The notes below the pieces were generated by a model, which was not told the DNA's origin, ran no database searches, and worked only from the letters and a program-made list of their open reading frames with translations. Below are positions 7,473-11,876 of a DNA stretch of 64,000 nt, piece after piece. The position numbers and the translations under genes are program-made. Source of the stretch: Sulfuricaulis limicola (GTDB taxonomy: Bacteria > Pseudomonadota > Gammaproteobacteria > Acidiferrobacterales > Sulfurifustaceae). The number at the start of each line of letters is the position of its first letter. The stretch's first letter is position 1. The DNA lies in contig NZ_AP014879.1 of the NCBI RefSeq assembly GCF_002355735.1, forward strand, positions 2,387,501-2,451,500, written 5' to 3'.

Positions 7473-7502
7473 TTTATAGCACAGCCTTTTGCGAATATGC
7501 AA
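7473..7502 (-). promoter_or_regulatory. Predicted sigma70 promoter of the porin gene
   Basis: On the minus strand TTGCAT (7502-7497) is followed after 18 bases by TATAAA (7478-7473). This gives a 5' leader of roughly 60 bases ending in AGGAGG. The region further upstream, 7500-7560, is AT-rich, as in strongly expressed porin genes. Prediction only. Confidence 0.55.
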
Positions 7503-7660
7503 CGCAATTTTGTAAATAAACGACAAATAATTATTATGTAACTTTTTTGCAACAAAAAGGTGAATTATCCCGAAAACAAGCTGATTTTTGCCAGATTTGG
7601 TGATTCGAGGGTCAGGATTGTCTGCTCCCAAGGATTCTTGTCGAGCCTTTGGGTTCGAGG

Positions 7661-7852
7661 GGACTAGGATTACTCGGGACATCCATGTCCCTCGCCCCTT
7701 CGGGGTCGCTGCCGCTTCGCGGTAGCGTTCCGCGCGCTCCCGGCGCGCGCTCGTCGACAATTTTGTCGGGAACAAAATTGGACGCGCTTTAGCGCGCCCG
7801 AAGGGCGGACGCCAGGGATGGCGTCCATCAAGCTAGGTTCTCATCCTAGTCC
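7661..7852. repeat. Hairpin-rich element bounded by inverted tRNA-Gln T-arm copies
   Basis: The two ends carry inverted copies of GGACTAGGAT (7661-7670 and, on the other strand, 7852-7843). The right end extends to a 20-base match (18 of 20) with the T-arm of the adjacent tRNA-Gln at 7908-7927. The interior is a chain of short hairpins, among them 7676-7691, a GCCCC/GGGGTC stem near 7694, CGCGCG stems near 7731-7750, and 7796-7826. The last one belongs to the same family as the hairpin at 31719-31749. No convincing reading frame was seen. It lies between the porin promoter and the tRNA terminator. Confidence 0.7.
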
Positions 7853-7860
7853 AAATCGAA

Positions 7861-7897
7861 AATCAAAACGGCCCGCACGAGGCGGGCCGTTTTGATT
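7861..7897. terminator. Terminator of tRNA-Gln
   Basis: A 16-bp perfect stem (7861-7876 with 7882-7897, loop ACGAG) has A/T-rich outer ends, so it gives a U-rich tail in either direction. It starts three bases after the tRNA 3' end. Confidence 0.85.
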
Positions 7898-7899
7898 TT

Positions 7900-7973
7900 T
7901 GGCTGGGGGACTAGGATTCGAACCTAGATAAACAGAGTCAGAGTCTGTTGTCCTACCGTTAGACGATCCCCCA
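7900..7973 (-). tRNA. tRNA-Gln (anticodon CUG)
   Basis: The minus strand folds as a complete cloverleaf of 74 bases with encoded CCA. The acceptor stem is UGGGGGA/UCCCCCA with discriminator G73, and its U1-A72 pair is typical of glutamine tRNAs. The anticodon stem is ACAGA/UCUGU with loop CUCUGAC, so the anticodon is CUG reading CAG codons. The T-arm is CUAGG-UUCGAAU-CCUAG. Confidence 0.96.
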
Positions 7974-8015
7974 GAAGGGCTCCGGATTCTAGCTGAAAAT
8001 TAACCGGCTAAAAAT

Positions 8016-8043
8016 CATTAAGCCACCCGGAGGTGGCTTAATG
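8016..8043 (-). terminator. Intrinsic terminator after rpsI
   Basis: A 12-bp perfect stem (CATTAAGCCACC with GGTGGCTTAATG) closes a four-base loop. On the minus strand it is followed by AUUUUUA. It ends the rplM-rpsI transcript. Confidence 0.75.
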
Positions 8044-8067
8044 TATTTCCGAGTCGCCGAAAAAGAA

Positions 8068-8463
8068 TCAGCGCTTGGAGTACTGCGGACGCTTGCGCGC
8101 CTTGTGCAGGCCGTATTTCTTGCGCTCCACGGCGCGCGAGTCGCGCGTGACATAACCGGCCTTGCGCAGCGCGGGGCGCAGCGATTCATCGTAGGCCATC
8201 AGCGCGCGCGTGATGCCATGACGGATGGCACCGGCCTGGCCGCTGGGCCCGCCGCCAGCGACATTCACCATGATGTCGAATTTGTTTTCCATGTCCACCG
8301 CCACGAACGGCTGGCGCACGATCATGCGCGCGGTTTCACGGCCGAAATATTCATCGAGCGACTTGCTGTTGATCTTGATCTCGCCCTTGCCGGGCTTGAG
8401 ATAAACGCGCGCCGTGGAAGTCTTGCGCCGCCCGGTGCCGAGATGGATGTTTGCCTGCGCCAT
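8068..8463 (-). CDS. rpsI: 30S ribosomal protein S9 (uS9)
   Basis: Small-subunit ribosomal protein whose C-terminal tail reaches into the tRNA P site. The 131-aa protein begins [20 protein letters not shown] and ends [17 protein letters not shown]; the terminal Lys-Arg is the conserved P-site contact. The ATG is at 8463. It follows rplM by 19 bases, the invariant bacterial order. Confidence 0.98.
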
Positions 8464-8482
8464 GGTATTGGTTACCTGAAGA

Positions 8483-8911
8483 TTAGATTTCCAGAACCTT
8501 GGGGTTCTGTGCCGTATGCCGGTGATTCGCGCCGCGGTAGACCTTGAGCTTGCGGAACATCTGCCGGCCGAGGGGGTTCTTCGGGAGCATGCCGCGCACG
8601 GCGGTTTCGATGACGTCACCCGGGGCCTTTTTCATCATGTCCTGGAAGCTCGTGGCCTTCAGACCACTCTGGTAACCGGAATAGCGATGATAAATTTTGT
8701 CGCGACTTTTCTTGCCCGTCACCTGCAGTTTGTCGGCATTGATGACGATGATGTAGTCGCCGGTATCGACGTGCGGGGTATATTCGGCCTTGTGCTTGCC
8801 GCGCAGACGCCGCGCGATTTCGGTCGCGACGCGCCCGAGCACCTTGCCGGTGGCATCAATCACATACCAGTCGCGCTTGACGCTTTCCTGTTTTGCGGAA
8901 AATGTTTTCAT
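8483..8911 (-). CDS. rplM: 50S ribosomal protein L13 (uL13)
   Basis: Early-assembling large-subunit protein. The 142-aa sequence has the family features [19 protein letters not shown] near the N-terminus and [19 protein letters not shown] toward the C-terminus. It is the first gene of the rplM-rpsI operon. The 177-base gap upstream, to the candidate small RNA terminator, should hold its promoter; a TAATAT at about 8994-8999 on the minus strand could be its -10. Confidence 0.98.
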
Positions 8912-9088
8912 GAAAATTCTTCGGGTAATTCAATTGCTTGAAGGCTTCGCGCCATGCACTTGCGGTGCGGGACAGCCGCCGGAAAGCCGCGCATATTACA
9001 AAAGACGCGCATGAGTTACAAGGAAAAATCATCAATCCGGCTTCTGGCGGTCGAGAACCGCCTGAAGCCGATACGCCGGAAAACGGGC

Positions 9089-9118
9089 AAAAAAAAGGCG
9101 TGGCTGGGGAGCCACGCC
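9089..9118 (-). terminator. Intrinsic terminator of the candidate small RNA
   Basis: A perfect 9-bp stem GGCGUGGCU/AGCCACGCC with loop CCCC, followed by eight U residues on the minus strand. There is no U-run on the plus strand, which fixes the direction of transcription. Confidence 0.9.
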
Positions 9119-9246
9119 CGAACCACCACTAGGAGGATGGAGGAGCCATTACCCGGCGCCTGAGCGCCGTAAAGAAATCTTTCAACTACCTGTGTTCAGA
9201 TTAGCAAACTTCGGGCCAATCGCCAGAAAGCCTGCTCAAATAGAAT
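9089..9246 (-). ncRNA. Candidate small RNA with anti-Shine-Dalgarno motifs
   Basis: A predicted transcript of about 158 bases in the gap between the ferredoxin and rplM genes. It has its own near-consensus promoter at 9253-9280 and ends in an intrinsic terminator at 9089-9118 with a CCCC loop and eight U residues. Inside, a short CGGCGC-UCAG-GCGCCG hairpin precedes an exposed stretch GGCUCCUCCAUCCUCCUAG. That stretch contains CCUCCU, the same core as the 16S anti-Shine-Dalgarno. A CCAU/GUGG stem could present CCUCCUA as a seven-base loop. C-rich loops of this kind are known from Xanthomonas sX13 and the so-called cuckoo RNAs, which block ribosome binding sites. The function here is inference. 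A six-codon frame (MAPPSS) inside is too short and lacks a ribosome site. Confidence 0.7.
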
Positions 9247-9252
9247 ATAATA

Positions 9253-9280
9253 ATTATCTAATATTTCTACCTATTGTCAA
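9253..9280 (-). promoter_or_regulatory. Strong sigma70 promoter of the candidate small RNA
   Basis: On the minus strand a perfect TTGACA (9280-9275) is followed after 16 bases by GATAAT (9258-9253), or after 17 by ATAATT. The region is strikingly AT-rich compared with the surroundings. A start near 9246 would place the terminator about 158 bases downstream. No coding gene begins downstream before that terminator. Confidence 0.75.
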
Positions 9281-9516
9281 TATGATCTGAAAAAAATCTT
9301 TTACAAACCCCTAATATAATTCAACTAATTGATTTTAATAGTAAAACTTATAACTTCCAGCTCTGCTCTTGCCTGATCCTGCTGCCTGATTTCTTGAGCA
9401 GTTGTGACCCGGCATTTCGGATTTGGTTCAGTGCGGGCAATGCGTCAGCACATAGCACCAGGCCATCTGCGTCACCCGGTGACGCCTGGAACCCACCTCG
9501 AAGGCAACGACCGGGG
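9281..9516. other. Intergenic region downstream of the ferredoxin gene
   Basis: Bases 9281-9360 continue the AT-rich block upstream of the small RNA promoter and may include UP-type A/T tracts or regulator sites. Bases 9360-9516 return to normal composition and lie at the 3' end of the ferredoxin gene. I see no reading frame, tRNA or clear terminator here. Confidence 0.5.
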
Positions 9517-9831
9517 TTATTCCTTCAGTTTGAGGCGCTCAACCGCCTGACCCTGCCGCAGGTGCCGGTCGATGATCTCGTCGATGTCCACCTGATCCAC
9601 GTAGGTGTACCAGGTGCCTTCGGGGTAAACCGCGATGACCGGCCCTTCCTCGCAACGGTCCATGCAGCCCGCCTGGTTGATGCGTACGCCGCCCTTGCCA
9701 TCCATGCCCAGCGACTTGATGCGGGCCTTGGCGTAGTCGCGCATCTCCTGCGCCGGGTGGTTGGCGCAGCAGGCGCTGCCGTCCTCGCGCTTGTTCACGC
9801 AGAAAAAAACATGATAACGATAATAAGACAT
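9517..9831 (-). CDS. Thioredoxin-like [2Fe-2S] ferredoxin
   Basis: Small cytoplasmic electron carrier of the thioredoxin-fold ferredoxin type. From ATG 9831 it is 104 aa. The cluster ligands fit C11 and C21 or C22, then C56 and C60 in AGCMDRCEEGP. The C-terminal part VYPEGTWYTYVDQVDIDEII is typical of stand-alone members. An upstream in-frame start at 9891 would add 20 non-conserved residues. It is divergent from the GlcF-like gene; a redox partnership is possible but not shown. Confidence 0.85.
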   Translation of the reverse strand: MSYYRYHVFFCVNKREDGSACCANHPAQEMRDYAKARIKSLGMDGKGGVRINQAGCMDRCEEGPVIAVYPEGTWYTYVDQVDIDEIIDRHLRQGQAVERLKLKE

Positions 9832-9949
9832 GGGCCTGGAAAGTTGCCAGAATCGGGTCACAGACGCTAACGTAGCGGAATTATAGGTCATCGGCCCGTC
9901 TTGGGCATATTTTACCTGTACCTGTCACACTGCTTCCTGACCGCCCGAC

Positions 9950-11200
9950 TTGAACCCTGACTTACATATCAAGCGCGAGGCCGCTAAATGCGTGGCCTGC
10001 GGGTTGTGCCTGCCACATTGCCCAACCTACAACCTGCTGCACGATGAAGCCGAGTCGCCGCGCGGCCGGCTGTCGTTGATGCTGGCGTTGGCGAAAAACG
10101 ACCTGCCCTTGAGCGCCAAACTCGAGTCCCATCTCGCGCGCTGCCTGGGTTGCCGCGCCTGCGAGAAGGTCTGCCCTTCCTATGTCGGTTACGGACAAGC
10201 GCTCGACGCCGCGCGCGCGCTGATCGCGTCGCGCCGTTCCGCAAACGCCAAACCGGCGAACCGATCCGTCGCATTGATTCAATGGCTGGTGGAAAAACCG
10301 GCGCGGATGCGCGTGCTGGGAAAATTGCTGCGGCTGTACCAGGCGACGGGGCTGCAGTGGCTGCTGCGGAAAAGTCATGTGCTCAGGCTTGTCGGGCTGA
10401 GCGGGCTCGATGCCGCGGTTCCGAAACTTCAGACCCAAAGAACTTTCGCAGAAACCTGTCCGACAAAAAACAGGCCGAAGGGCCGCATCGCGCTCTTTAC
10501 CGGCTGTCAGGCGAGCCTGACGGACCAGCAGGTGCTGGCGGCCTCGATCCGGCTGCTCAACCGGCTGGGATACGAAACGCATATACCGCCGGAGCAGGGT
10601 TGTTGTGGCGCCCTCCATCTGCATGACGGTCAGACCGCGAAAGCCGCCCAACTCATGCGGCGGAATATCGCGGCGTTCGCCAACGGTGACGACGCGATCG
10701 TATCCGTCGCCAGCAGTTGCGCCGCCACGCTTTGCGAATACGGAAAATATCCGGAAGGCGACGAGTCCGCTGGAAAATTTTCCGGCCGCATCCGGGACAT
10801 CAATCAATTCCTGGCTGACGCGGTCTGGCCGGAGAATACCGCTTTCCACCCGCTGCCCGGGCGAATTGCCGTACATGATCCATGCACCATGACCAATGTA
10901 TTGCGACAGGAAGACAAGATTTATGCCCTGCTCGGGAAAATTCCCGGCGCTGAAATCATCCCGTTGCCGGAAAACAGAATCTGTTGCGGCGCGGCGGGAA
11001 CATATCACCTGACCCAGGCGCCGATAGCCGAACAACTGCGCACGCCGAAAATCGATCATCTCAAGCGCCTCGCCCCGGATATCCTGGTGACCTCGAATCC
11101 GGGCTGCGCCAGCTTTCTGGCGGCCGGCATGCGCGAGGCCGGGCTGGCCATCGAGGTCATGCATCCGGTGACGCTTCTCGAAAAACAGCTCAAGACTTGA
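9950..11200 (+). CDS. glcF: Iron-sulfur (CCG-domain) subunit related to glycolate oxidase GlcF
   Basis: Electron-transfer subunit that carries electrons from a flavin dehydrogenase toward quinones. It has two [4Fe-4S] motifs, C14-C17-C20-C24 and C65-C68-C71-C75, then two CCG domains (QGCCGALHLHDG and ICCGAAGTYHL). At 416 aa it matches GlcF. The start is TTG 9950, since no ATG or GTG with a better ribosome site precedes the first cluster. The glcD and glcE genes are not in the window, so the partner is unknown and it could serve another 2-hydroxyacid dehydrogenase. Confidence 0.85.
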   Translation: MNPDLHIKREAAKCVACGLCLPHCPTYNLLHDEAESPRGRLSLMLALAKNDLPLSAKLESHLARCLGCRACEKVCPSYVGYGQALDAARALIASRRSANAKPANRSVALIQWLVEKPARMRVLGKLLRLYQATGLQWLLRKSHVLRLVGLSGLDAAVPKLQTQRTFAETCPTKNRPKGRIALFTGCQASLTDQQVLAASIRLLNRLGYETHIPPEQGCCGALHLHDGQTAKAAQLMRRNIAAFANGDDAIVSVASSCAATLCEYGKYPEGDESAGKFSGRIRDINQFLADAVWPENTAFHPLPGRIAVHDPCTMTNVLRQEDKIYALLGKIPGAEIIPLPENRICCGAAGTYHLTQAPIAEQLRTPKIDHLKRLAPDILVTSNPGCASFLAAGMREAGLAIEVMHPVTLLEKQLKT

Positions 11201-11231: not shown

Positions 11232-11876
11232 ATGACAAACCGCACATTTACCGCCCTTGACCGCCTGATGGAACAGCTGGATCAGGCGCTGCACACCGTG
11301 TTCGGGCCGGCGCCCAATCCCGGGCGCGCCAGTCCCGCGGCCGGCAAGGCCGATGCCGAACTGTCGGCCGCGGAGCGTGAATTGGCGGGCCGGCTCATGC
11401 GCATCAACCATACCGGCGAAATCTGCGCGCAGGCCCTGTACCAGGGACAGGCCGCGACGGCGCGGCTGCCGGAGGTGCGCGGAAAAATGGAACAGGCGGC
11501 GCAGGAGGAGAACGACCATCTGGCCTGGACCGAGGAACGCATCCGCGAGCTCGGCGGCCACACCAGCTATCTCAATCCACTCTGGTACACGGGTTCATTC
11601 GCCATCGGTGCCTTGGCGGGCATCATCGGTGACAAGTGGAGTCTTGGCTTTGTCGCCGAAACCGAACGGCAGGTGGTGCGGCATCTCGAGGGTCATCTGC
11701 AACGACTCCCCGTGGAAGACAACAAAAGCCGGGCCATCCTGGAACAGATGCACGACGACGAGGGCCGTCACGCCACGGTGGCCATAGAATCCGGCGGCGC
11801 TGAACTGCCGGAACCCATCCGCCAGGCCATGCGTTGCTCGTCGAAAATCATGACGCACACGGCGTACTGGATTTAA
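11232..11876 (+). CDS. coq7: Demethoxyubiquinone hydroxylase Coq7
   Basis: Di-iron monooxygenase that hydroxylates the demethoxyubiquinone ring, a late step of ubiquinone synthesis, at the inner membrane. The repeated carboxylate/histidine ligand pattern is visible: NHTGEICAQALYQGQ, EENDHLAWTEERI, ETERQVVRHLEGH and DDEGRHATVA. The 214-aa length is normal. It follows the GlcF-like gene by 31 bases in the same direction and ends four bases before the convergent VOC gene. Confidence 0.94.
   Translation: MTNRTFTALDRLMEQLDQALHTVFGPAPNPGRASPAAGKADAELSAAERELAGRLMRINHTGEICAQALYQGQAATARLPEVRGKMEQAAQEENDHLAWTEERIRELGGHTSYLNPLWYTGSFAIGALAGIIGDKWSLGFVAETERQVVRHLEGHLQRLPVEDNKSRAILEQMHDDEGRHATVAIESGGAELPEPIRQAMRCSSKIMTHTAYWI

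Follow-up and report, generated by a model that had tools for sequence, protein, structure and literature searches.

A conserved small RNA gene with anti-Shine-Dalgarno motifs predicted upstream of rplM in Sulfuricaulis limicola and other Gammaproteobacteria

The closest described systems are the double-hairpin small RNAs (sRNAs) of Betaproteobacteria. The Rfam family RF02278 and the NcS27, NcS03, NcS05 and NcS62 RNAs of Burkholderia cenocepacia are described as sharing a CU-rich 5' tract, a hairpin with a CU loop and a terminator, in this order (PMC5688073; PMC4603805). Overexpression of NcS27 slows growth, whose rate rises when antisense RNA is directed at the CU-rich 5' end (PMC5688073); a review presents NcS27 as regulating the shutdown of metabolism when nutrients are withdrawn (PMC10987360). 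S17 of Bordetella pertussis is reported to depend on Hfq, to be trimmed by RNase E to a form of about 67 nt and to repress BP2158, a sigma54 activator, and it has been traced through Betaproteobacteria (PMC11722255). According to one paper, the toxic sRNAs have until now been confined to Betaproteobacteria (PMC7011215). Another mentions in passing that Aeromonas salmonicida J223 alone has a betaproteobacteria toxic small RNA (PMC8780938), so a gammaproteobacterial case had already been annotated.

Other sRNAs use C-rich or anti-Shine-Dalgarno (anti-SD) motifs as well. sX13 of Xanthomonas harbors CCCC/CCCCC loops, always lies beside polA, is found in Xanthomonadaceae only and is Hfq-independent; its C-rich loops are reported to be needed for the repression of mRNAs with G-rich motifs near their starts (PMC3771888). 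The alpha-r14/NfeR1 RNA of Sinorhizobium meliloti displays ultraconserved CCUCCUCCC anti-SD seeds in its loops, represses at translation starts and is linked to nitrogen control. It consists of three hairpins with three seeds, is Hfq-independent and NtrC-repressed, and is described with no sigma54 signature (PMC10746234).

The locus considered here belongs to the gammaproteobacterium Sulfuricaulis limicola. The window, i.e. the whole stretch of 64,000 nucleotides that was analysed, lies within a single contig of 2,864,672 bases. A gap at 8912-9516 separates rplM (ribosomal protein L13; 8483-8911, minus strand; PF00572, E 8.2e-47) from a ferredoxin-like gene (9517-9891, minus strand; PF01257 only below its cut-off), and the sRNA elements are found there on the minus strand. 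An earlier note on this DNA, made from its letters, had described a TTGACA, a 16-base spacer and a GATAAT ahead of a non-coding stretch of about 158 bases, closed by a 9-bp terminator with eight U residues. All of these elements are present. The sigma70-type promoter (9280-9253, minus strand; TTGACA at 9280-9275, GATAAT at 9258-9253) matches the consensus at 11 of 12 positions and is the best of four promoter-like sites in 7500-11000, where shuffles yield 2.0 sites with at least 9 matches. From its predicted start near 9246, a long sRNA of about 157 nt (9246-9090, minus strand) is predicted by promoter and terminator positions and folding, and 9036-9516 contains no minus-strand open reading frame (ORF) of at least 40 aa; on the plus strand, two ORFs (64 and 69 aa) run over the 3' part of the gene. 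The terminator stem-loop (9119-9096, minus strand) pairs 9119-9110 with 9105-9096 around a CCCC loop (9109-9106), which gives ten pairs, G-U counted, instead of the nine claimed, and leads into eight T at 9096-9089. Taken on its own, the terminator scan is weak, since nine terminator-like sites occur in 7500-11000 against 5.3 expected.

In an alignment of seven loci of the genus and one of the family, the sigma70-type promoter sits inside a conserved block, TTGACA...AAATATTAGATAATTATTATAT. A promoter form TTGAC-N-ATATTAG is found in 33 of 59 aligned loci (21 in the order Acidiferrobacterales, 12 outside), at a distance of 106-165 bases from the core of the RNA in the order (78 in L028) and of 50-76 bases outside it. 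Upstream of both promoters of the gene (the second is treated below), AATCAATTAGTTG at 9322-9334 on the minus strand reads by eye like the consensus for IHF, which is weak evidence; the match is full in four of the eight aligned loci, has one mismatch in three and is absent in L008. Two other loci, L050 and L052, show an AT-rich block, ATTAGACAATTATTATATT, upstream of a TTGACA...TATAAT-like promoter and not overlapping its -10 element, as if it were a separate regulator site.

The transcript contains both anti-SD motifs ascribed to it before, CUCCUCC at 9145-9139 and UCCUCCUA at 9137-9130, on the minus strand. This core pattern is unique to the sRNA locus within the 64 kb and appears in none of 100 shuffles. 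A pattern of the 16S rRNA tail, allowing two mismatches, found no match in the organism's own genome, and the core is not equated here with its own anti-SD. The second motif forms the loop of hairpin 1 (9140-9123, minus strand), in which CCAUC (9140-9136) and GGUGG (9127-9123) flank CUCCUAGU (9135-9128); single-sequence folding favours a near-equal variant. Together with the terminator this anti-SD loop makes up a double hairpin in the last 60 bases of the sRNA. Directly before the core, a 5' hairpin, CGGCGC-UCAG-GCGCCG (9169-9154, minus strand), is kept with changes in the genus. The 158-nt form folds better than its shuffles (z -2.4; 6 of 200 equally good), as does a 103-nt form (z -2.9; 1 of 200). 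That the motifs are exposed, as had been supposed, applies to the loop CUCCU, with predicted mean unpaired probabilities of 0.66, 0.71 and 0.93 in forms of 157, 103 and 58 nt, and applies only in part to CUCCUCC, for which the values are 0.51, 0.17 and 0.49 (mostly paired in the 103-nt form). Because the accessibility of CUCCUCC differs between the predicted forms, trimming of the RNA matters in this model.

A frame that encodes MAPPSS (ATG GCT CCT CCA TCC TCC TAG, 9149-9129) runs across the core, which raises the reading of a short peptide gene or a dual-function RNA, and S17L is said to hold a putative ORF of 32 residues (PMC11722255). The ATG before the core is kept in only 9 of 59 loci (L001-L005, L009, L013, L022 and L023, all within the 30 loci of the order), and conservation of the sequence extends to every codon position. 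The small ORF is rejected on the former ground, and a coding role of any kind is extremely improbable.

The RNA had been regarded as an orphan, a view that does not stand: it goes with the double-hairpin sRNAs RF02278, NcS27 and S17. At Rfam's gathering level the window holds only a tRNA. By E-value, RF02278 ('Betaproteobacteria toxic sRNA') matches the gap best, at 9148-9090 with 38.1 bits and E 2.5e-6, covering model positions 1-64 of 64 and showing a hairpin similar to hairpin 1; since 38.1 bits stays below the gathering score of 50, the sRNA is not a member by Rfam's rule. Weaker matches in the gap are SorX (0.0003), ncS025 (0.0018) and others at 0.057 or above. The full model alignment and its pair counts give the two-hairpin architecture of the RF02278 type, with a CU-rich 5' tract and loop, and tracts directed against ribosome-binding sites are, as far as the Burkholderia RNAs are described, common to them and this sRNA. 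Unlike the NcS27 group, it has a long leader, a sigma54-type promoter and a place upstream of rplM, and its genome holds one strong copy compared with the four reported for B. cenocepacia. S17 is described with a long form of about 190 nt and a stable 3' form of 67 nt, to which the forms predicted here are similar, and with a conserved 27-nt region that carries sites against ribosome-binding sites, like the present core, a likeness by description (PMC11722255). Its gene sits between a glycosyltransferase gene and coq7, and the accessible part of the paper leaves a sigma54 promoter unmentioned (PMC11722255). A coq7 gene also belongs to the present neighbourhood (11232-11876, PF03232), and coq7 or osmC is found in several loci; the shared surroundings (rplM, coq7, osmC) are a lead and not a defining feature.

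The earlier note had further expected promoter, terminator and CCUCCU motif to be conserved in relatives, and they are. With a query of 206 bases against 60 genomes, the own one included, BLAST matches 44 at E<=6.0e-9, while the other 16 give a weak match or none; matches are long within the genus and beyond it mostly confined to the last 60-74 bases (query 133-206). The 3' module was aligned from 59 loci, 30 taken from BLAST (all those retrieved) and 29 found with the RF02278 model (L031-L059). L060 was omitted, being the window a second time. Every position of CUCCUCC is invariant or kept in at least 90% of the loci, as are all 15 positions of CTCCTCCATCCTCCT, all 15 of CUCCUCCAUCCUCCU and four of the five of GGUGG; this invariance is partly a matter of selection because both sets of loci were chosen by similarity. 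Nine of the ten terminator-stem pairs show two-sided (compensatory) changes. Over the whole structure, the covariation score reaches 0.265 compared with 0.148 in shuffles, and two-sided changes occupy 63 cells against 20.7 in shuffles and 6-17 in slid controls; the control slid by -2 has 10 two-sided pairs against the 9 observed, but 16 such cells against 63. Hairpin 1 is paired in 99.3% of cells, and its changes are one-sided only with respect to the commonest pair (U-G; C-G and U-A also occur).

At E<=0.001 the RF02278 model itself has matches in 83 of the 274 class genomes, two of which exceed the cut-off, and in none of 14 control genomes. R1, a covariance model of the 59 loci, which its source loci match by construction, has matches at E<=4.4e-12 in 44 of the 57 genomes from the order (48 at E<=0.001). 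For the class it gives 81 of 274 genomes at E<=1e-8 (a hand count) and 115 at E<=0.001, and for the phylum 31 of 249 at E<=0.001, with 11 outside the class, the best of them at E 5.5e-5. The weak matches include L151, L153 and L162, Pseudomonas-like tandem matches that resemble PrrF rather than this RNA, so matches above 1e-8 are not counted as orthologs. This cut-off is conservative, as L065 (G057, 2.4e-6), adjoining rplM, is a likely true ortholog. As separate observations, one genome has RF02278-like matches three times in tandem, spaced by about 150 bases (G317:C3:217943-218301), and another (G485) gives six R1 matches. On these sequence comparisons, the DNA next to rplM has the look of a genuine, independent sRNA gene with anti-SD motifs that is deeply conserved.

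Loci were chosen by sequence similarity, with position not among the criteria, and in 49 of the 59 rplM is the next gene downstream on the same strand. It follows in 27 of the 30 BLAST loci (the exceptions are L008, L012 and L023) and in 22 of the 29 picked with RF02278 (not in L031, L032, L042, L046, L047, L051 and L059). A reverse test started from rplM and sought a relaxed core pattern up to 700 bases upstream in the 30 best-scoring of 52 rplM matches in 56 genomes of the class, a sample tilted to relatives. The pattern occurs in 12 of these loci, and 18 have nothing. By eye, hairpin and terminator accompany it in ten of the 12, the window included (L061, L062, L065, L067, L071, L078, L079, L080, L083 and L086), and are missing in L069 and L073.

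The same-strand position ahead of rplM, in 27 of the 30 loci of the order and 22 of the 29 picked with the RF02278 model, would also suit a cis-acting leader or attenuator of rplM-rpsI, in which transcripts from 9246 end at the terminator unless they read through, thereby tuning the synthesis of L13 and S9. The sRNA, INDEPENDENCE from rplM, is followed by a separate predicted rplM promoter between its terminator and that gene (TTGTAA-N17-TAATAT, 9021-8993, minus strand), which is 3' of the terminator and not part of the sRNA, making a leader role unlikely. The form TTGTAW-17-TANNAT is present in 20 of the 49 loci with rplM, where 0.01 is expected from mononucleotide shuffles. When these 49 loci are scanned more loosely for their best site, the average is not above chance (27% of shuffles equal). 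A leader is also difficult to reconcile with a distance to rplM that varies from 74 to 417 bases, with an anti-SD tract that provides the most conserved letters and with seven genomes that have the sRNA but no rplM near it. In these, it lies after coq7 and an opposed osmC at nine loci (L031, L032 and L142-L148, with L143 and L148 repeating L031 and L032), with no rplM within 1.5 kb downstream. Attenuation of rplM-rpsI is thus held to be a poor account of the locus.

A second promoter-like element, which like the conservation of the sRNA was absent from the earlier note, lies inside the long transcript. The consensus of sigma54 promoters is TGGCACG-N4-TTGCW, with GG and GC at -24/-12. TGGCCCG-AAGT-TTGCT (9218-9203, minus strand) matches it at 11 of 12 positions, and its predicted start near 9192 would give an RNA of about 103 nt (9192-9090). 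In a scan of the 200 bases upstream of each core that required GG and GC and a score of at least 9 of 12, such an element occurs in 18 of the 30 loci of the order, against 0.75 expected from shuffles, and starts 69-82 bases before the core; none of the 29 loci outside the order has one (1.12 expected). Its presence follows families (f1 10/15, f7 3/3, f6 5/5), and it is missing in 12 of the 30 loci, including all five of f2 and both of f4; L002 reads TGACCCG and thereby fails the GG requirement. Of the non-required letters, T is kept in 18 of these 18 loci, C in 16, G in 17 and the two of TT in 18 each, compared with at most 12 for the four spacer columns and at most 15 for a flanking column, although column conservation is partly by construction because the scan demanded GG, GC and a score of 9. 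The whole genome has 12 exact TGGCNCG-N4-TTGCW sites (the reversed control gives one), and only that of the sRNA lies outside any open frame of 100 codons; inspected by eye, the frames after the 12 sites form no clear regulon. A reading of the TGGC...TTGC block as an RNA stem was rejected, for by eye the 5' partner is lost in L008, L010 and the f6 loci. The genome has an rpoN gene. On these sequence matches, the sRNA gene in Acidiferrobacterales often has a second, sigma54-type promoter. GlmY-type sRNAs have overlapping sigma70 and sigma54 promoters; both kinds of gene would be served by both sigma factors, whereas RNA, targets and location differ.

Two stacked promoters, a 5' leader that varies and a 3' module that is nearly invariant over about 58 bases, with CUCCUCC, the CUCCU-loop hairpin and the terminator, are best explained by a trans-acting double-hairpin anti-SD sRNA that blocks selected ribosome-binding sites, a reading to which a probability of roughly three in four is given. 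In such a system, the long RNA would be made at a basal level from the sigma70 promoter, and a shorter RNA from the sigma54 promoter in response to an activator signal. An endonuclease would trim both to the 3' module, as reported for RNase E on Bordetella S17. Aided by Hfq, the module would then pair via its CU-rich sites with AGGAGG-like ribosome-binding sites on a limited set of mRNAs, with porin and transport genes as a likely class, and the blocked entry of ribosomes would slow uptake and metabolism when nutrients are short. Trimming, pairing with ribosome-binding sites and use of Hfq are inferred from the relatives. The genome has an hfq gene, and a U-tract terminator is a feature of Hfq-bound sRNAs. 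As S17 represses the sigma54 activator BP2158 and the present gene has a sigma54-type promoter, a regulatory loop between sRNA and sigma54 is conceivable, if speculative.

A broader action has also been considered, namely general inhibition of translation initiation, in which the RNA soaks up Shine-Dalgarno sites or mimics 16S rRNA and so affects many or most messages. It does carry a CCUCC copy, relatives in RF02278 are reported, by second-hand citation, to be toxic to E. coli, and growth is described as slowed by NcS27 overexpression (PMC5688073), whereas S17 overexpression is described as leaving exponential growth of E. coli BL21 unimpaired (PMC11722255). Targets were sought among 49 window ORFs of at least 450 bases (greedy calls with uncertain starts) as complementarity to the core over at least 6 bases in the 20 bases that precede a candidate start. 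Only four qualify, no more than with shuffled motifs (mean 2.2, maximum 6); the in-gene control gives one, and the 16S tail as yardstick also four. They comprise a porin (start 7406; 7 bases, AGGAGGA; CCAGGAGGAATCATG), a bactofilin (start 4137; 7 bases), a multihaem-cytochrome-like protein (start 59198; 7 bases) and a cytochrome c (start 29286; at least 6 bases). This complementarity test, a small one, neither backs global repression, which the earlier note had put forward and which is left unsupported, nor proves any target. The long conserved tract further suggests pairing beyond the Shine-Dalgarno core, and a general inhibitor is accordingly considered improbable.

The selective anti-SD sRNA favoured here can be set beside the other C-rich and anti-SD RNAs. 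The comparison with sX13 drawn before is apt for an analogue and fails for kin, as locus and motif differ: the present RNA has CUCCU instead of CCCC/CCCCC loops and neighbours rplM and a ferredoxin-like gene. Membership was rejected, there being no polA locus and, where sX13 has C4/C5 motifs in three loops, CCCC only in the terminator loop, which varies. The anti-SD loops of alpha-r14/NfeR1 are probably a convergent likeness; R1 matches outside the class are weak, the best at 5.5e-5.

Copies of the core were also found in viral contigs. Exact core patterns match three of 2.9 million IMG/VR contigs (L172, L173 and L218), and a beta-type core pattern has no match there. The phage copies in L172 (9512-9487, minus strand) and L173 (6663-6641, minus strand) carry CTCCTCCATCCTCCTAGTGGTGGTT with their own hairpin and U-run, and the copy in L218 (78-51, minus strand, at the edge of a piece of a 33 kb contig) has a variant core, GTCTCCTCCACCCTCCTCCTTTGGTGGATT. 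The hairpin after the core differs from that of the host in all three, the best predicted fold of L172 is without hairpin 1, and the U-run of L218 is poor. L173 encodes a portal and a large and a small terminase, with the core upstream of the terminase and portal genes. L172 has a phage primase, a CII-like activator and a repressor-like gene, and its core lies just upstream of the CII-like activator gene. A search of annotated phage records gave one weak match (E 0.5), rejected as a homolog, and plasmids gave none.

Within cellular genomes, some hairpins resemble the module. G000:C1:445714-445758 (L170/L205, minus strand) has a CGTT-AACTCCTCC-AACG hairpin with a terminator (R1 34.7 bits), divergent from an open frame that by eye starts like a PAS-domain regulator; as a second copy of the gene it was rejected, since it does not align as an ortholog of the G007/G002 matches. 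The latter (L200 and L201; G007:C63 and G002:C155) have a CCTCCTCCATGGTGG hairpin and terminator that in both genomes, members of the genus, follow the same coding sequence, and may be a relative derived from a 3'UTR.

In the open-licence literature, no report was found of the rplM address across Gammaproteobacteria or of a sigma54 promoter for this family, and, in a search not directed at phages, none of phage copies of the sRNA. New here, as predicted from sequence, are the gammaproteobacterial spread, the rplM address, the sigma54-type promoter and the copies in viral contigs. These could be drawn together, tentatively and with rather more doubt than confidence, into an ancient anti-SD sRNA with its home upstream of rplM-rpsI, passed down throughout Gammaproteobacteria, the former Betaproteobacteria among them, and wired to sigma54 in Acidiferrobacterales; phages of these hosts would have the core in copies of their own, placed in regulatory regions and with terminators that are unrelated, and so turn a translation brake of the host to their own use. 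RF02278 is filed as betaproteobacterial; if the homology holds, this anti-SD RNA, which would block ribosome sites, is older and much wider than Betaproteobacteria. On the same proviso, its fixed genomic address would make the sRNA findable without sequence similarity, the sigma54 input in one order would point to a nutrient signal, and the phage copies would invite a test of the viral use of a host sRNA.
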